25,483 bases of DNA, taken from assembly GCA_003697105.1 (NCBI GenBank), contig RFFQ01000120.1, positions 1 through 25,483 of the forward strand, read 5' to 3'. Under the pieces are notes generated by a model, which was not told the origin of the DNA, made no database searches, and worked only from the letters and a program-made list of their open reading frames with translations. This stretch comes from Gemmatimonadota bacterium. GTDB lineage: Bacteria > 4572-55 > J002. Shown here one piece after another: positions 7,741-22,118 of the stretch (positions are counted from its first letter, which is position 1; every line of letters starts with the position of its first letter). The position numbers were made by a program, and so were the translations under genes.

Positions 7741-7766
7741 ATGACCTCTCCGGGTGCGTTCCATAA

Positions 7767-7795
7767 TTGACAGATCACCGCCGAAGTGTTACCAT
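7767..7795 (+). promoter_or_regulatory. Sigma-70 type promoter for the REC-PAS kinase run
   Basis: TTGACA (7767-7772), 17 bases, then TACCAT (7790-7795): a perfect -35 with a 4-of-6 -10. It sits between the rhomboid terminator and the ATG at 7847, giving a leader of about 45 bases. It supports the downstream start of the kinase gene over the longer frame from 7754. Confidence 0.5.
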
Positions 7796-7846
7796 AAACA
7801 ACCTGAGTCAAATCCGATTCTTACGTCCGCCAACAAGGATACCACA

Positions 7847-9403
7847 ATGAATGTGCTCGTCATTGATGATGATATTAAAATTCGGGGATTATTAGAAAAA
7901 TTTTTAGTAGCAAAAGGGTACACCGTTACCTTAAAAAAGAACGGTACAGAAGGGTTAGAAGCGTTTTCGCAAGGGAATTATGAGATTGTCATCCTTGACA
8001 TTATGATGCCCCACATGGATGGGTACGAACTTGCCAGACGCTTGCGGGGTATCCCCGGTACAGAAGATACCTTTCTCTTGGCAATGACCGCCTATGATTC
8101 CCCAGATGTATTGCAAAACATTTTAGATGCTGGCGTCGATGATTACGTCGCTAAGCCATTTAAGTTGAGGCTGTTAGATGTCCGTTTGAAAATTGCCGAA
8201 GAACGTATTGAAGGACGCATCCGCCGCCGTGCCGCCGAACAAAAACTGGCACAACAAAATCGATTGCTCCAAAAAGAGATCGCCATCCGCCGCCGGATTG
8301 AACAACAGCTCCGCAAACTGGAAAAAGCCATTGAGACGGTGGAAGTCGGGGTGACCATCACGGACCCCACCGGTAAGATCATCTACATCAACCCAGCAGA
8401 CGCCCATATGCACGGCTATTCGGTGTCCGAGCTGATCGGCAAAAACGCCAGTATCTTTGGCAAAGCCGAGTCCCGGCGGGAAATGAAAGTAAGTGAATTT
8501 GCCCGCGCCGAAAATTGGAAACGCGAATCGGTCAATGTTCGGAAGGATGGCTCTGAATTTCCGGTACAACTGGTGTCCAGCCACGTCAAGGATGAAAACG
8601 GTAATCTGATCGGCATGGTGACGGTCAGTGAAGACATTACCGAGCGTAAAGAAGCGGAACGTAAACTTCTGGAAGCCCTCCGCCATCTGGAAGAACTCAA
8701 TCAGGAAAAAACCGAAATTTTGGGGATTGTCTCACATGACCTTAAAAACCCATTGACCACCATCATTGGTAATGCCCAAATGGTGACCCAACTCGGGCTG
8801 GAACCCTTTACCGCCGAAGACCTCCTTAGCATGTTCCGCGACATCGAAATCACCGGTAAACGCATGTTCAACCTGATTGAAAATCTGCTCGATCTGAACC
8901 GGCTCGAATCCGGCAACCTGAAATTGGAATTGGAAACCACCGACCTCCGCGAATTGGTTCAATATGTGGTGAGCAATCATCAAGTTGCCGCCCAACAAAA
9001 ATCGATTGAACTTCATCTGGAGCTACCCTCTCAACCCCTTGAGATTTACACCGATCCGGACGCCGTTGTCCAAATACTGGATAACTTGATTTCTAATGCC
9101 ATCAAATACTCACCACCCGGAAAGAATGTCTTCATCCGTAGTCTTTATCACTCCGAACGAATCCGTTGTGAAATTCAGGATGAAGGTCAAGGTTTAACCG
9201 AAACCGATATGCGCCAGTTGTTCGGTAAATTTGCGCGGCTCAGTGCCCAACCCACCGGAGGAGAGCACTCCACCGGTTTAGGCTTATCGATTGTGAAAAA
9301 ATTAACCGAATCCTTACACGGCACAGTCTGGGCAGAAAGTGCCGGTAAGGATCAAGGCAGTACATTCATCTTGGAACTTCCCCGAACCATCACCACACCA
9401 TGA
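7847..9403 (+). CDS. REC-PAS hybrid histidine kinase
   Basis: A soluble 518-residue kinase. Residues 1-118 form a receiver domain with acidic residues D7-D9, phospho-acceptor Asp51 (ILDIMMPHMDG), Thr81 and Lys103. Residues 119-160 are a coiled coil. Residues 155-270 form a PAS domain of the redox/ligand type (GKIIYINPADAHMHGYS, RKDGSEFPVQ, MVTVSEDITERKEAE). The HisKA domain has His297 in GIVSHDLKNPL. The catalytic domain shows LDNLISNAIKYSPPG, DEGQGL and STGLGLSIVKKL. Having the receiver at the N-terminus means an upstream kinase could gate this enzyme. I chose ATG 7847 because AAGGA lies 7 bases before it and a promoter and a terminator lie inside the longer frame. The stop overlaps the ATG of the helicase-like gene (ATGA), indicating translational coupling. 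No membrane segment and no neighbouring output regulator are seen. Confidence 0.94.
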   Translation: MNVLVIDDDIKIRGLLEKFLVAKGYTVTLKKNGTEGLEAFSQGNYEIVILDIMMPHMDGYELARRLRGIPGTEDTFLLAMTAYDSPDVLQNILDAGVDDYVAKPFKLRLLDVRLKIAEERIEGRIRRRAAEQKLAQQNRLLQKEIAIRRRIEQQLRKLEKAIETVEVGVTITDPTGKIIYINPADAHMHGYSVSELIGKNASIFGKAESRREMKVSEFARAENWKRESVNVRKDGSEFPVQLVSSHVKDENGNLIGMVTVSEDITERKEAERKLLEALRHLEELNQEKTEILGIVSHDLKNPLTTIIGNAQMVTQLGLEPFTAEDLLSMFRDIEITGKRMFNLIENLLDLNRLESGNLKLELETTDLRELVQYVVSNHQVAAQQKSIELHLELPSQPLEIYTDPDAVVQILDNLISNAIKYSPPGKNVFIRSLYHSERIRCEIQDEGQGLTETDMRQLFGKFARLSAQPTGGEHSTGLGLSIVKKLTESLHGTVWAESAGKDQGSTFILELPRTITTP

Positions 9404-11457
9404 AGCACCTCATCGAGGCTCCCCGAACTGGGCATCACCATATTTTTTTGGAAGGACCCGCCGGCGCGGGCAAAACCTGCCGGATGATCCAACGGCTCGC
9501 CCACCTGATAACTAACGGCATCACGGGCTACTCCATTTTAGTCTTAGTGCCCGACCGGAGCATCGGACAACGGTACGAGGAAGCCCTTATTCAAATGGAA
9601 TTGGGCGCCTACGGGCGGGTTGACATCCAGACCTATTATGGGCTGGCAACTCGATTGGTGCGCACATTTTGGCCGCTGGTCGCGCAGGATGCGGGGTTCA
9701 CCTCACCCGAAAAACCGCCGGTCTTCCTCACGTTTGAAACCGCACAATACGTCATGGATCAATTAATCGCCCCTCGTTTGGCGCAAGGCTATTTTGAAGA
9801 CCTCAATCTCCGCCCACAACGGATCGTCTCCCAGTTAATTGATAACCTCAACAAAGCCGCCATCAACGGGTATTCCATTGAAACCATTGAAGAGCGCCTG
9901 AGCCGGGTCTGGATGGGTAAAACAGACCGGTTGCGGCATTACCAGCAGGCACAAACATGCATCACGGAATTTCGCCGCCATTGCCTAAATAGAGGTTTGC
10001 TAGACCTCTCACTGACCGTTGAAATCTTTCACCGACATTTGGTCAATAATCCCACATTTTGGACTTACTTTACCGGACGTTACCAGCATCTGCTGGTTGA
10101 TAATCTGGAAGAGAGCGTACCGGTCGCCCAAGATTTGATCCGCCGCCTACTACCCATGATGAAATCCGCCGTGGTGGCATACGATACGAACGCCGGATTT
10201 CGGGTCTTTTTGGGGATTGATGCCGAAGGAGCATACCAAATTCGGGAGATGTGCACAGAGACCATCACCCTAACCGAAAGCGAGACCTCCAACCCCCACC
10301 TAAGTGCTTTTGCGGGTAAAGTTGGGGAATATCTCCGCCAATTTCCGTTGGTGACTCGTAAAGGAGACCCTAAAAAAGCCATTCGTTGCCTGATTCAGGA
10401 GACCTACCGTGCCAAGATGATCGAGCGCGTGGGACAGGAAATTACCCGTCTCGTTCGGAAAGGCGTTCAAGCCGGCGATATTGCCGTTGTGGCGCCCTAT
10501 GCGGATGGGGTATTGCGCTTCAGCCTGAGCGAAGAGTTCCGCAAGCAGGACATCCCCTTTCAAGTGGTGCGCCGCTACGAAAGTTTACAAGAAGAACCCA
10601 TTGTCCGTGCCGCCCTGACCATCGCGGCGCTGGTGCATCCTACGTGGGACGTTGATATGAGTCCTTTTCCGCACCCGTATGATGTGGCAGAAGCGATCAC
10701 GGAGGTCATCAAGGAGATTGACCCCGTGCGAGCGGCATTGCTCGTTAAACGGTTGTACGATCCAAAAACAAAGCAGTTGAAACCTGCCAGCAACATAAAA
10801 AACCCCGAACGCATCGGCTTTGCCAATTTAGAGCGATATGACACCTTACAAACGTGGATTTGTAACTGGCAGCAAAAGGCGGAAATACCGTTTGACCACT
10901 TTTTGCGCCATCTATTTGAGTTTATTTCGCAACCCGAATTAGACCCGCGCAAAGCCAGCGTTTACGCCAAATTGGTCGCCTCTGTGGAGTGGTTCAAAGA
11001 AGCCGCTCCGGGGATGGGTATTGAGACCCATCAGGTTGGGCAGCATTACCTTCAGATGGTTTATAAAGGAATCATCAGCGCGCAATATCTTTCCAACCAA
11101 AAGATAGATGAACAGGCAGTAACGCTGGTAGCGCCGGTTTACAGCTACCTGTTGAGCGGGCATCATGCCCGGTTTCAGTTTTGGCTGGATGTGGGGTCAA
11201 CCAGTTGGTGGGAGCCCCCCCACCAACCGTTGACCAACCCCCATGTGCTGGCGCGCCGGTGGGATGCCACCGAAAAATGGACGGATGCCGTCGATTATCG
11301 CTTGCGGCAAGAGGCACTGTTTAAAATGGTCAGTGGCTTAATCCAACGGTGCCGGGATGGCATTTACATTTGCACCAGTGATCTGGAAATAACCGGTGAA
11401 CCCCAAGATAGCCCGCTATTACGAGCCGTGCAGAATATTTTACGAGCTAAAAAATGA
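9400..11457 (+). CDS. UvrD/Rep-like superfamily 1 helicase-related ATPase with degenerate motifs
   Basis: A 685-residue protein built like a UvrD/AddB-class helicase. Walker A is intact (GPAGAGKT, 19-26). The Walker B position reads HLLVDNLEES (about 230-239), where UvrD proteins have LLVDEFQD, so the catalytic Glu is replaced by Asn. The motif III region is AYDTNAGFRVF (about 260-270), lacking the usual Asp-Gln. The second RecA-like half follows (IERVGQEITRLVRKGVQAGDIAVVAPY, about 341-367). The motif V region VTLVAPVYSYLLSGHHARFQ lacks the HxAKGLE signature. The C-terminal motif VI region has DYRLRQEALFKMV instead of an ALTRA-type arginine finger. No nuclease domain is visible. From memory, cyanobacteria carry similar degenerate UvrD-like proteins; this needs a database check. 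It overlaps the upstream kinase by 4 bases, so the two are co-expressed. The fold call is good; helicase activity is doubtful. Confidence 0.8.
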   Translation: MKHLIEAPRTGHHHIFLEGPAGAGKTCRMIQRLAHLITNGITGYSILVLVPDRSIGQRYEEALIQMELGAYGRVDIQTYYGLATRLVRTFWPLVAQDAGFTSPEKPPVFLTFETAQYVMDQLIAPRLAQGYFEDLNLRPQRIVSQLIDNLNKAAINGYSIETIEERLSRVWMGKTDRLRHYQQAQTCITEFRRHCLNRGLLDLSLTVEIFHRHLVNNPTFWTYFTGRYQHLLVDNLEESVPVAQDLIRRLLPMMKSAVVAYDTNAGFRVFLGIDAEGAYQIREMCTETITLTESETSNPHLSAFAGKVGEYLRQFPLVTRKGDPKKAIRCLIQETYRAKMIERVGQEITRLVRKGVQAGDIAVVAPYADGVLRFSLSEEFRKQDIPFQVVRRYESLQEEPIVRAALTIAALVHPTWDVDMSPFPHPYDVAEAITEVIKEIDPVRAALLVKRLYDPKTKQLKPASNIKNPERIGFANLERYDTLQTWICNWQQKAEIPFDHFLRHLFEFISQPELDPRKASVYAKLVASVEWFKEAAPGMGIETHQVGQHYLQMVYKGIISAQYLSNQKIDEQAVTLVAPVYSYLLSGHHARFQFWLDVGSTSWWEPPHQPLTNPHVLARRWDATEKWTDAVDYRLRQEALFKMVSGLIQRCRDGIYICTSDLEITGEPQDSPLLRAVQNILRAKK

Positions 11458-15363: not shown

Positions 15364-17694
15364 GTGTCCCACCCCTACTGGATCGAACCTCAACGTGTCA
15401 CCTTACCTTACGAATTTACCACGGTGGTGGGTGGTCATCCGCTGATTGCCCAGATTCTCTATCAGCGGGGAATTACCGAGCCGCGAGCAGCGCAAGAATT
15501 CCTGAACAGCGATTTCTACCAACCGGCGGATCCGTTGGAATTACCGGATTTAGAACAAGCGGTAAACACGCTTCGGCACGCCAAAAAAGCGGGATGGCGC
15601 ATTTGTGTTTGGGGGGATTTTGATGTCGATGGGCAGACCTCCACCACACTGTTGGTTGATGCACTCCGCCAATTGGATTACGATGTGTTTTACTACATCC
15701 CAGAACGTGCCGGAGAAAGTCACGGCTTGAATACCGGTGGCATTCAAACCGTGATTCAAGAACAACACGCAGACCTTATTTTGACCTGTGACTGTGGGGT
15801 CTCCAATCTGGAAGAGGTCGCTTACGCCTATGAACTCGGGGCAAAAGTGATTGTGACCGATCATCACGAATTACTGCCGGAGTTACCCGCCTGCGAAGCC
15901 GTGGTCAACCCGCAACGCCTCCCGGAAACGCACCCGTTGCGCGTGTTGTGTGGGGTCGGTGTGGCGTACATGGTCGTCAAAGTACTGTATGAGATGGAAG
16001 GACGGCACACCAAAAGTGATCAGTGGCTCGATTTAGTCGCGCTCGGCACAATCGCCGATGTGGCAGTCCTGCAACACGATAACCGGTATCTGGTTCAAAA
16101 AGGATTACCGCAGTTGATGTACCAACCGCGTCCGGGTCTCGCGGCGATTTTTGAGGTGGGTGGCATAACCCCTTCCGAACTACTGGAAACCGAAATTGTT
16201 GGTTTTGGGTTGGGTCCCCGGTTGAACGCGGTGGGACGGCTTGACCATGCAAAGGATGCGGTGGAATTGCTCCTCGCGAAAGACGAAATGGTCACCCGTC
16301 GCATGGCAATGGACTTGGAGGTCTATAATGAACAGCGAAAACAATATTGTGACGAAGTCGAAGAAGATGCGGAAAGAATCCTGCGCTACCAACCTCAGTT
16401 GCTAGACGAGCCGGCATTGGTGCTTTCCGGAACCAACTGGCACCCGGGTGTGATCGGTATTGTCGCCAGCCGTCTGGTCGAACGCTATAATAAAGCGACC
16501 ATTCTGATCAGTACCTCCCCAGAAGAAGGGGTAGGACGGGCATCCGCGCGGTCTGTTGAGGGGCTACACTTACAAAACGCTATTTTTAAGCATCAGGATT
16601 TGCTGTTGGGTGGCGGCGGCCATGCTATGGCGGCCGGCTTTGCCATCCAGACCGAACGGATTCCCGAATTTCGACGCGCCTTTCAACAAACCGTGATTGA
16701 GACCCAACAGGATGATGCCCTCAACGGAGCAATCGCTATTGAGGGATGGGTTACCCTCCCGGAAATTACCGCCGATTTTATCCGCGACTTGTATCGTTTG
16801 GCACCATTTGGCGCCGGCAACCCCAAGCCGGTGTTAGGCAGCCAAAATGTAAGACTCACAAACGTTCGGGCAATTGGGGCAAATCGCGATCACACCCGAT
16901 TGGTGATCGTGGACTCGCAGGGGCAAAAAATCACCGGGTTATGGTGGCGTAAATCCAGTACGGATATTCCAGATTATCCGGTCGATGTGGCATTTACGGT
17001 CAATTTGAATGAATTTCGAGGCTCCAGTACCCCGCAGATTATTTTACGAGACGTTCGACCCTATTACGCGACTCCGGTCGTTGCCAACACCCCGCCTTTA
17101 GTGGCTAAAAACGACATTCAGGTGATCGATTATCGCCATGATCCCCATCGATTAGAACGCATACACCAACTCGCCACAGAACATGGTGACCGGTTGCAAA
17201 TTTGGGCGGAGGGTACAAGCGCAAAAGCAATTGACAAGGCGGTCTCGCGGGCATATCTTAAGCCTTCGCCAAAATTAGTGATCGCTTCTGCCCCCGCCGC
17301 TCCAGACATTTTGAATCAGATTTTACATCGGGTTTCACCAGAGCAGATTTTCGTGATCACAACAGAGGAAGTTCAACAGACGCCGACGGATGTGATCAAA
17401 GCGGTCGCCGGCGCCGTCAAAACGGTATTAGCCCAATCCAGTGGCCAAACCACTTGGGCAGAGCTTGCCGGCGCCGTTGGACAGCGGGCGTTTACCGTCA
17501 AACACGCCTTAGATGTTCTTGTGGAAATGGGCAAATTAAGCTACACACAGGAAGGCAACCGGGTACGGATCAAACCCCAACCGGCAAATGTTGCCCCCAA
17601 AGCAGATCAAGAGGCACTAAAAGCATTGTTGCAAGAAACGGCAGCCTATCAGCGGTATTTTAACCGGGTAAATCTAACGGAATTGATTCAATAA
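15364..17694 (+). CDS. recJ: Single-stranded-DNA-specific exonuclease RecJ, with C-terminal extension
   Basis: RecJ degrades single-stranded DNA 5' to 3' in recombination and mismatch or base excision repair. The catalytic DHH phosphoesterase core has motif I GDFDVDG (84-90), TCDCGVSN (141-148) and VTDHHE (164-169), all metal-binding acids and histidines present. It is followed by ALGTIADVAVL and FGLGPRLNAVGRLDHA. The DHHA1 domain carries GGGGHAMAAGF and a conserved SGTNWHPGVIGIVASRLVER. An OB-like domain follows (PFGAGNPKPVL to about residue 570). Residues about 575-776 are an extension beyond the E. coli type (577 residues), with a small Rossmann-like section and a likely winged helix (TWAELAGAVGQRAFTVKHAL). 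The start is a GTG 9 bases after AAGGAG. It is the last gene of the plus-strand run that begins at 7847. The assignment is firm; the role of the extension is unknown. Confidence 0.95.
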   Translation: MSHPYWIEPQRVTLPYEFTTVVGGHPLIAQILYQRGITEPRAAQEFLNSDFYQPADPLELPDLEQAVNTLRHAKKAGWRICVWGDFDVDGQTSTTLLVDALRQLDYDVFYYIPERAGESHGLNTGGIQTVIQEQHADLILTCDCGVSNLEEVAYAYELGAKVIVTDHHELLPELPACEAVVNPQRLPETHPLRVLCGVGVAYMVVKVLYEMEGRHTKSDQWLDLVALGTIADVAVLQHDNRYLVQKGLPQLMYQPRPGLAAIFEVGGITPSELLETEIVGFGLGPRLNAVGRLDHAKDAVELLLAKDEMVTRRMAMDLEVYNEQRKQYCDEVEEDAERILRYQPQLLDEPALVLSGTNWHPGVIGIVASRLVERYNKATILISTSPEEGVGRASARSVEGLHLQNAIFKHQDLLLGGGGHAMAAGFAIQTERIPEFRRAFQQTVIETQQDDALNGAIAIEGWVTLPEITADFIRDLYRLAPFGAGNPKPVLGSQNVRLTNVRAIGANRDHTRLVIVDSQGQKITGLWWRKSSTDIPDYPVDVAFTVNLNEFRGSSTPQIILRDVRPYYATPVVANTPPLVAKNDIQVIDYRHDPHRLERIHQLATEHGDRLQIWAEGTSAKAIDKAVSRAYLKPSPKLVIASAPAAPDILNQILHRVSPEQIFVITTEEVQQTPTDVIKAVAGAVKTVLAQSSGQTTWAELAGAVGQRAFTVKHALDVLVEMGKLSYTQEGNRVRIKPQPANVAPKADQEALKALLQETAAYQRYFNRVNLTELIQ

Positions 17695-19913: not shown

Positions 19914-22118
19914 ATGACATTTCCCTTAGATTTGAACAACGCCTTAACCCCACTGTTAATGGGGCTGGCACTGGTGTTAATTGCGTTTTCCATTTTTATC
20001 TATCGTTACACAAACCCGCCCATTTCCCGCCAACTGAAAGCAGGCTTAGCCTTTTTACGGGCGTTGGCGTTTGTTATTTTACTTTTCATGCTGATGGAAC
20101 CCATTCTCTCGTTCACAGAGGAACGGGTGAAAGAACCGGTTATTGCGGTTCTCATGGATAATTCAGCCAGTATGACTTTGCGCGATGCGACGCCAGACAG
20201 CCTTTCGCGGTTAGAATGGGCACAGCAGTTTGCCCAAACGCTATCCTCACTCAATGATAAAGGGGAAGTGCGCTATTTCTCCTTTTCGAGTCAGGTGCGG
20301 GAGGTACCTTCGCCGGAGGTACTTCAGGGTGATGGGGGTGCCACCAATATGGGGCACTCGTTGCGCGAAGTCGCCGATCAACTCAAAGATCAAAATCTGG
20401 CGGCGGCAGTTTTCCTCACAGATGGCGCAAATAACAGCGGTACAGACCCCGTCCGAGCCGCACAAACGGTCGGGATACCGGTATTTACCGTTGGGATCGG
20501 CGATTCCAGCATCCCGAAAGATGTGGCAATTACCCGATTTTTGACAAACGAAGTTGCCTATGTCAACAACCGCATTCCGATAGAAGTCACCATCCAATCC
20601 AGTGGTTTTGCTTCCGGCGAAACCACCCTGATTTTACGAGAAGATAACCAAACCCTTGATACCGCTCCAGTCTCGTTGACCTCAGATTTACAGCACCAAA
20701 ACGCAACACTCCACTTCACCCCCACTACAGAAGGGGTCCACAAATACACCTTAACCATTCCCGTCCAAAACGGTGAAAAGATTCGGGAAAACAATACCCG
20801 TATTTTTCTGGTGAATGTTCTTAAAAACAAGATTCAGGTACTCCTGACCAGCGGCTCACCCAGTTATGACTTCAGCTTTATGAGTAAATCGCTGAAAGCA
20901 GACCCCAATATTGATGTCACGACCATGGCGATGGTCAAACCGGGTGAATTTTACCAGCAATTACCGGATGGCACCCATCGTAAATCCGTCTCCTTTCCGG
21001 CAACAGAAAAAGCGTTGAATACCTACGATTTAATCATTTTGATGGATATGAATCTACGCTATATTCAGACGGGAACACAGCAGTTATTAGTCGATTTAGT
21101 GGAAAATAAAGGCAAAGCGGTTTGGTTTGTGGGGGGTAAACAGACGTTTGATCGCGGGGGCTTTCGCCGTTCGCCATTGGTGGATTTGATGCCGGTTCAA
21201 CTGGGGCGCGGCACGATCAACCAACAGTTTCAAATTAAACGGACACCGGACGGGGAGCAAAGCGCCATCTTACAAGTCGATGACGATCCCCTGGTCAGTG
21301 ATGACATGTGGAACGAGTTCCCCCCGCTCTTGGGTGCAAATTTACTAGGTGCGGTGAACCCCGGGGCAACCGTGCTGGCGGAGCATCCGCTGAAAAAAAC
21401 ACCGATTATCGCGACCGGACGAGCCGGACGGGGCAAAACGATGGTCTTTGGGGCATATTCATTCTGGCGCTGGCGTTTTTTTATGGAAGGAGTCGGTTAC
21501 AGTTCCGACTATTTTGACCGATTTGTGGGAAATGCCGTACGCTGGTTGGTCACTCGTGAAGTCGATCAGCGAGTAAAAATTAACACAGACCAAAACGTCT
21601 ATCGTAGTGGCGAAACCATCACCTTTACCGCCCAAATCTACGATGAAAATTACCAACCGGTGAATGAAGCAAAAGTGGAGGTAACAGTGACATCCAAAAC
21701 CGGTACGGATTTTGTGCCGATTCATCTGACCTTGCTCCCCACACCGGAAGGTAACGGCATCTATACCGGCACGATTAGTGCGTTACCCGCGGATGATTAC
21801 GAATTTTCCGGCTATGCGGAGTATCGCAACCGGCGAATGGGCGAGGATACCGGCGAATTTACCGTGAGTATCTACAGCTTTGAATACGAAAATACCCGCA
21901 TGAATGCCGGACTACTGAAGCGTGTTGCTAGCTCACAAAACGGCAAATTCTATACACCGGATAATGCCGGTCAACTCCAAAACGACATCCATCTGGAAGC
22001 AGAAATTATTAGCCAACATCGCGAAGTAACGTTATGGAATAATGGCTGGTTTTTCGTGCTGTTTGTGGGACTATTGGCTGTAGAATGGGCGGCACGAAAA
22101 CGCAAAGGGTTAGCTTGA
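19914..22118 (+). CDS. Membrane-anchored VWA-domain protein
   Basis: A 734-residue protein with two N-terminal membrane helices (about 11-30 and 45-65), a von Willebrand factor A domain (75-200), a large extracytoplasmic region and a C-terminal helix (WFFVLFVGLLAVEW, about 711-724). The VWA metal site is intact: DNSAS (82-86), Thr144 in ATNMG and Asp170 in LTDGANN, so it can bind Mg2+ and a partner. Residues 330-560 resemble the class I glutamine amidotransferase-like domain found in such proteins (TYDLIILMDMN, VWFVGGKQTF), probably non-catalytic. Residues 570-690 look like a beta-sandwich. Relatives in FCB bacteria often sit beside MoxR ATPases and BatA-like genes, which are missing here. 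AAGG precedes the ATG by 5 bases. The architecture call is firm; the function is unknown. Confidence 0.88.
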   Translation: MTFPLDLNNALTPLLMGLALVLIAFSIFIYRYTNPPISRQLKAGLAFLRALAFVILLFMLMEPILSFTEERVKEPVIAVLMDNSASMTLRDATPDSLSRLEWAQQFAQTLSSLNDKGEVRYFSFSSQVREVPSPEVLQGDGGATNMGHSLREVADQLKDQNLAAAVFLTDGANNSGTDPVRAAQTVGIPVFTVGIGDSSIPKDVAITRFLTNEVAYVNNRIPIEVTIQSSGFASGETTLILREDNQTLDTAPVSLTSDLQHQNATLHFTPTTEGVHKYTLTIPVQNGEKIRENNTRIFLVNVLKNKIQVLLTSGSPSYDFSFMSKSLKADPNIDVTTMAMVKPGEFYQQLPDGTHRKSVSFPATEKALNTYDLIILMDMNLRYIQTGTQQLLVDLVENKGKAVWFVGGKQTFDRGGFRRSPLVDLMPVQLGRGTINQQFQIKRTPDGEQSAILQVDDDPLVSDDMWNEFPPLLGANLLGAVNPGATVLAEHPLKKTPIIATGRAGRGKTMVFGAYSFWRWRFFMEGVGYSSDYFDRFVGNAVRWLVTREVDQRVKINTDQNVYRSGETITFTAQIYDENYQPVNEAKVEVTVTSKTGTDFVPIHLTLLPTPEGNGIYTGTISALPADDYEFSGYAEYRNRRMGEDTGEFTVSIYSFEYENTRMNAGLLKRVASSQNGKFYTPDNAGQLQNDIHLEAEIISQHREVTLWNNGWFFVLFVGLLAVEWAARKRKGLA

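Follow-up and report, generated by a model that had tools for sequence, protein, structure and literature searches.

psh, a family of helicase-fold proteins with altered catalytic motifs, as a proposed subunit of a three-polypeptide helicase-nuclease

The psh gene and its product

We examined a 25,483-nucleotide stretch of DNA, hereafter the window, from a Gemmatimonadota bacterium (GTDB lineage Bacteria; 4572-55; J002), which comprises positions 1 to 25,483 of the forward strand of contig RFFQ01000120.1 in assembly GCA_003697105.1 (4.18 Mb, 97% complete; the window genome). Our subject is an intact open reading frame (ORF) on the plus strand at 9400-11457 that begins with ATG and encodes a catalytically altered protein of 685 amino acids (aa) with the superfamily 1A (SF1A), or UvrD, fold. 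We have named the gene psh, for pseudo-helicase, and propose that its product is a non-motor subunit. The analysis makes it very likely that this product is the catalytically dead SF1A subunit of a helicase-nuclease of three polypeptides, similar to AddAB, AdnAB and RecBCD, that processes double-strand DNA ends.

Domain searches place the protein at the edge of known helicase families. Pfam returned the UvrD-helicase N-terminal domain (PF00580) over its cut-off (E=2.9e-10), an AddB N-terminal match (PF21445) below cut-off (E=0.0018; 18.0 bits, cut-off 26.6) and no match to PF04257 (RecC) or PF12705 (nuclease). The NCBIfam matches to UvrD, PcrA and AddB were weak and all far under the equivalog cut-offs, with 15.2 bits against 903.7 for the AddB model TIGR02773. 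Homologs approximately 43% identical over nearly the full length are present in Gemmatimonadaceae (L003, L005) and Latescibacterota (L004), and a further fragment was found in an unclassified bacterium (L006). A profile built from these homologs and one distant relative was searched in the phylum of that relative, which we take to be Cyanobacteria based on a CemA-family neighbour and on the fit of the RecC distribution described below to a published one (PMC5101192). With one family carrying a fused form (f63) set aside, 67 of the 85 sampled genomes of this phylum contain psh.

The AlphaFold2 model of the protein is confident, with a predicted local distance difference test score (pLDDT) of 88.7 and a predicted template modelling score of 0.88; together with the 43% identity across phyla it places the psh signal far above chance. 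In fold comparisons, UvrD and Rep reached the highest Z scores (up to 29) at a root-mean-square deviation (rmsd) of about 10 Å, with lower Z scores for AdnB (Z 25.5, 4.9 Å over 614 residues), AddB (Z 21.3, 6.5 Å over 604 residues, matching AddB residues 2-696) and HelD (6wvk_H; Z 20.0, 395 residues aligned). The rmsd values suggest that the modelled domain arrangement is nearer to that of the subunits of two-subunit complexes, a difference to which domain motion may contribute.

Motif changes across the family

Conservation was counted over 35 aligned family members including the window copy, and all motif positions given here lie on the plus strand. The Walker A motif or P-loop, GPAGAGKT (residues 19-26, nucleotides 9454-9477), is intact in the window copy, as the initial annotation had stated, and in the aligned cyanobacterial members, and its Lys is kept in 27 of the 35 proteins. 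It is gone from psh of Gemmatimonadota and Latescibacterota (L003, L004) and altered in the fused form. Since the P-loop has been lost in these members it is dispensable there, and psh of Gemmatimonadota and Latescibacterota probably fulfils its role without binding nucleotide.

Motif II reads LVDNLEE (residues 232-238, nucleotides 10093-10113), again as first described, with the catalytic Glu replaced by Asn in the window copy. Glu is absent from this position (235) in the entire alignment, where Asp occurs in 26 members, Asn in four, Gly in two and Ala, His and Arg in one each; the preceding metal-binding position holds Asp in 27/35 and Glu in 8/35. The feature of the family is the missing Glu and not the presence of Asn, so that of the replacement noted initially the loss of Glu is conserved and the Asn itself, outnumbered by Asp, is not. 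No DExx motif was found elsewhere among the aligned members, and the motif change spans several phyla, which answers the initial concern that it might be limited to one genome.

Motifs III and V are likewise altered, in agreement with the initial annotation. The remnant of motif III, YDTNAGFRVFLGIDAEG (10180-10230), is without GDxxQ and includes Arg 268, invariant in 35/35. The motif V region is replaced by WLDVGSTSWWEPPHQPLTNPHVL (11182-11250), in which L596, D597 and W603 are invariant (35/35), and the aligned members carry FWLD[AV]GS in place of HxxKGLE. This region probably corresponds in position to the latch insertion of AddB and RecC (PMC4824097). Motif VI had been described as lacking the ALTRA-type Arg, which proved incorrect: in LIQRCRDG (11338-11361) the Arg is kept, LIQRC (residues 647-651, nucleotides 11338-11352) lines up with ALTRA, and 27/35 members have Arg and 4/35 Lys at position 650. 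Invariance in the family lies at other residues, namely R268, P366, L396, L596, D597 and W603.

The family as a whole largely escapes existing models, which bears out the suggestion that it is distinct and poorly described. When the 35 members were scanned singly, PF00580 and the AddB N-terminal model matched the window protein alone, the NCBIfam helicase models each matched one of the 35, and 34 matched no Pfam or NCBIfam helicase model. The window copy is the least diverged, so the family is recognisable through it. A search of PHROGs with one cyanobacterial and one operon-type psh returned nothing. Our search, which covered the open-access literature, found no described cyanobacterial equivalent of psh, and an earlier description may exist elsewhere.

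Partner helicase and nuclease

In Gemmatimonadaceae and Latescibacterota, psh stands in an operon with genes for a UvrD-like helicase of ~750 aa and a PF12705 nuclease coming after it in that order (L003, L004 and, in part, L005). The operon helicases contain UvrD domains only. Both partners are present in the window genome, unlinked to psh. The helicase (760 aa; contig C186, L029:6238-8517) shares 40-45% identity with the copies in the operons, and a PF12705 search of the genome gave no match on its contig; the nuclease (contig C68, L030:5663-6478) is a PD-(D/E)XK protein of 272 aa with 38-41% identity to its operon counterparts.

The SF1 motifs of the partner helicase are all intact (AVPGSGKT, LEDEAQD, GDxNQSI, TMHxxKGxEWD, LLYVxITRA). 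Its profile aligns with the psh profile over 473 columns (hhalign, 93.7%, E=1.9e-7), and one cyanobacterial partner helicase had its best score with the recB model. The partner nuclease has the invariant residues H54, E98, D115, D129-x-K131, Q147 and Y151 and four conserved Cys, arranged as in the iron-sulfur staple of AddB and Cas4; from this arrangement an iron-sulfur cluster is predicted. The nuclease model (pLDDT 83) has its nearest match in the nuclease domain of AdnA (Z 18.0, 3.3 Å rmsd), with ACE1 (Z 15.6) and AddB (Z 15.3) next. The cyanobacterial ACE1 structures (PDB 9iab/9iac) were considered as the partner nuclease and rejected as not closely related, a cyanobacterial partner nuclease having no PDB match at E 0.01.

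Searches with UvrD_C and PF12705 did not find AddAB, RecBCD or AdnAB in the window genome. The only UvrD_C helicases are the partner and one UvrD/PcrA-like protein. Apart from the partner nuclease, PF12705 matched two places: the second place, considered as a possible AddB, was rejected as a Cas4-Cas1 fusion, and the third, a sub-cutoff match, is gyrase A. The Cas4-Cas1 fusion (contig C156, L032:746-2491) indicates in its own right that an adaptation module of the clustered regularly interspaced short palindromic repeats (CRISPR) type is present in this genome.

Gene fusion and co-occurrence

The order psh-helicase-nuclease recurs in six more genomes, all of the cyanobacterial phylum (L102-L107). 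In family f63, whose genomes are ~1.9 Mb, psh and the helicase form one protein of 1287 aa (L100, L101), in which the psh profile matches residues ~180-610 and the helicase profile 634-1277 with all motifs intact, and a separate gene for a 226-aa nuclease follows. The fusion was read in two f63 genomes, and a like frame length and match pattern occur in most of the ~60 sampled. Because the two are fused in one ORF, this is strong evidence that psh and the helicase work together.

Co-occurrence was evaluated in the 85 genomes, with hand-set thresholds, and gave 67 genomes with psh, 65 with the helicase and 65 with the nuclease. The nuclease accompanies psh in 64 of 67 genomes and the helicase does so equally often (Fisher p=6e-14 each, shared ancestry being ignored). 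RecC (PF04257) was detected in 10/85 genomes, and psh in only one of those, a genome that is 9% contaminated (p=1e-6); the distributions of psh and RecC are nearly exclusive, and almost every cyanobacterium without RecBCD has the apparent three-part system. Five small RecC-positive genomes belong to family f87, which fits marine picocyanobacteria, the identities of f87, f63 and the phylum being our assignment. Marine picocyanobacteria are reported with recBCD, and model cyanobacteria without recB, recC or recD (PMC5101192).

In a broad draw of 386 genomes, four gave true psh matches, and the same four have strong nuclease matches (E < 1e-33), the next nuclease match being 4e-16 in a 592-aa frame. 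Weak psh matches in frames of 1017-1243 aa from three distant genomes were rejected because these frames encode helicases of the UvrD family whose Pfam domains are intact, one of them with a partial PF12705. The analysis covered two genomes of the window's phylum, and neither psh nor the partner nuclease was found in the other genome of the window's class. Two single cases may be recorded here. In one cyanobacterial genome (G186:C6:1103287-1106917) psh is matched in two frames with ~1.7 kb between them, a pattern that resembles disruption by an insertion. In another, assembled as a single contig (G107), psh and the helicase were detected and the partner nuclease was not; another or a diverged nuclease may serve there.

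Genomic setting in the window

Directly upstream of psh is a gene for a receiver-PAS-histidine kinase protein (7754-9403, plus strand), which at its stop shares 4 bases (ATGA) with the start of psh; from this overlap the two genes are probably co-transcribed, which would link a signalling gene with a repair-type gene. On the same strand, 4 kb downstream of psh, lies recJ (15364-17694; TIGR00644 over cut-off), separated from it by mscS-like, ctaA and beta-helix genes, and the proximity of psh and recJ is possibly coincidence. Further along, at 19914-22118, one protein has an unusual mix of VWA, glutamine amidotransferase-like and MG2 domain matches.

Interpretation and alternatives

The fold, the loss of Glu, the operons, the fusion, the co-occurrence, the near-exclusion with RecC and the intact partner motifs form the computed basis for assigning psh to a helicase-nuclease. 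In this machine the partner UvrD/RecB-like helicase would be the only motor and the PD-(D/E)XK nuclease with its AddB/Cas4-type Cys set would do the cutting. Retaining the helicase fold and a P-loop and predicted to be unable to power translocation, psh would retain one of the separated strands behind the motor and join motor to nuclease. Both AddB and RecC use an inactivated helicase domain that bears a domain 2A latch to search the unwound strand for Chi (PMC4824097), and psh may perhaps look for a Chi-like signal in similar fashion. The three proteins would be expected to form a physical complex, and end resection, strand scanning, reading of a Chi-like signal and RecA loading are its putative activities. 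By analogy with AddB, whose structure 4CEJ binds AMP-PNP (adenylyl imidodiphosphate; PMC4824097), the P-loop may be kept in cyanobacteria and the window copy for structural nucleotide binding. The initial annotation had guessed at an AddB-type scaffold that does not unwind DNA; the family-wide loss of Glu, the fusion to a live helicase and the AddB and AdnB fold matches support this, as do the partner genes, whose products are an intact helicase and a nuclease of the AddB/AdnA type, although the predicted lack of unwinding is read from sequence motifs.

Several observations weigh against this assignment. UvrD and Rep outscore AddB and AdnB by Z, even though at the larger rmsd, and the nuclease also resembles stand-alone enzymes of the Cas4 family such as ACE1 (Z 15.6). 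The three genes are not adjacent in the window genome or in most photosynthetic cyanobacteria sampled. At the thresholds used, which were set by hand, three psh-positive genomes are without a detected nuclease and three without a detected helicase, and the Fisher tests take no account of shared ancestry.

The same data bear on other explanations. Were psh a slow ATPase or helicase standing alone, its Asp in place of Glu, P-loop and motif VI Arg could sustain weak hydrolysis or translocation without partners. The P-loop Lys and motif VI Arg (27/35 each) and the top rank of UvrD and Rep by Z would suit such an enzyme, but the aligned members have neither motif III nor motif V, the P-loop is absent from psh of Gemmatimonadota and Latescibacterota and altered in the fusion, and operons and fusion alike unite psh with an intact helicase; we regard this as quite improbable. 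That HelD is among the fold matches raises the question of whether psh attaches to a different machine, for instance RNA polymerase as HelD does, with its link to helicase and nuclease secondary. HelD ranks under AdnB and AddB, with only 395 residues aligned, and DNA-end processing is indicated both by the helicase fusion and by the co-occurrence with the nuclease, making such a role very improbable. Decay of a helicase in the window lineage would account for non-canonical motifs, but hardly for an intact ORF, 43% identity to proteins of other phyla, invariant residues in 35 sequences and a confident fold; the altered motifs being conserved across phyla, we rejected a decaying pseudogene as extremely improbable.

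An anti-phage defence module, as opposed to housekeeping repair, is suggested by the occurrence of UvrD-like and Cas4-like proteins in defence systems, by the GajB- and Cas4-like matches that PADLOC gives to the partners and by the defence contexts to which UvrD-Cas4 fusions have been tied (PMC5704561). Yet the genes are near-universal and mostly single-copy across cyanobacteria and nearly exclusive with RecC, their neighbours in the window genome are unrelated metabolic and envelope genes, and psh itself receives weak GajB-type PADLOC matches only. A resection enzyme may in any case degrade phage DNA, as RecBCD does. We consider a dedicated defence role improbable and retain the DNA-end-processing helicase-nuclease as the preferred explanation.

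With psh as part of such an enzyme, most of the cyanobacterial phylum would have in the trio a full candidate for its missing end-resection enzyme. We would go further only tentatively, with slightly more doubt than belief, and suggest a fourth end-resection architecture consisting of a dead-helicase scanner, a nuclease-free motor and a free-standing iron-sulfur nuclease with a Chi-like signal of its own. This architecture would be ancestral or sister to AddAB and AdnAB, from before the fusion of nuclease domains, and its users would be most cyanobacteria, their non-photosynthetic relatives, some Gemmatimonadota and Latescibacterota and the window's small phylum. If true, the three-subunit form would answer what replaces RecBCD in model cyanobacteria. 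Cyanobacterial Chi sites are described as unidentified and Synechococcus elongatus is said to encode AddAB (PMC10269773), a statement that may refer to part of the psh system. As cyanobacterial psh proteins go undetected by the helicase models of Pfam and NCBIfam, it was the less diverged window copy that made recognition possible, and break resection, DNA uptake by transformation and Chi marking in cyanobacteria become directly testable.

Comparison with known systems

On their defining features we rejected membership of psh and its partners in AddB, RecC or AdnAB proper. The broad class of RecBCD, AddAB and AdnAB has three functional parts encoded together, and this arrangement was found here in the operons, the fusion and the co-occurrence. 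AddB (PDB 3u44, 4cej; TIGR02773, PF21445) is, like psh, an inactivated SF1A helicase fold, the inactivity of psh being predicted from its motifs, and it is combined with a working motor and an iron-sulfur PD-(D/E)XK nuclease as we propose for psh. Unlike AddB, the 685-aa psh protein has no C-terminal nuclease domain, the nuclease being a separate protein, and its AddB sequence match is marginal and far under the family cut-offs; the partner motor is without a nuclease domain of its own, whereas AddA has one.

The mycobacterial AdnAB (PDB 6ppu, 9np6) provides the best fold agreement with psh by rmsd in AdnB and the nearest relative of the nuclease in the AdnA nuclease domain, but AdnA and AdnB each join helicase and nuclease domains in one chain, whereas the psh system consists of three chains or of a fusion and a nuclease. 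RecBCD is likewise divided into an active motor, a dead helicase (RecC) and a nuclease; psh differs in lacking PF04257, and its nuclease is not fused to the motor. With UvrD, PcrA and Rep, psh shares the SF1A fold, the PF00580 match and the motif VI Arg, and the family differs from them in being without the catalytic Glu, the motif III Gln and motif V. UvrD-Cas4 fusions and gene pairs (PMC5704561) also link a UvrD-like helicase to a Cas4-like PF12705 nuclease, but a dead helicase as third component, as in the psh trio, is not described in the available part of that source. The split architecture proposed here would add to the ways of building RecBCD-type machines.

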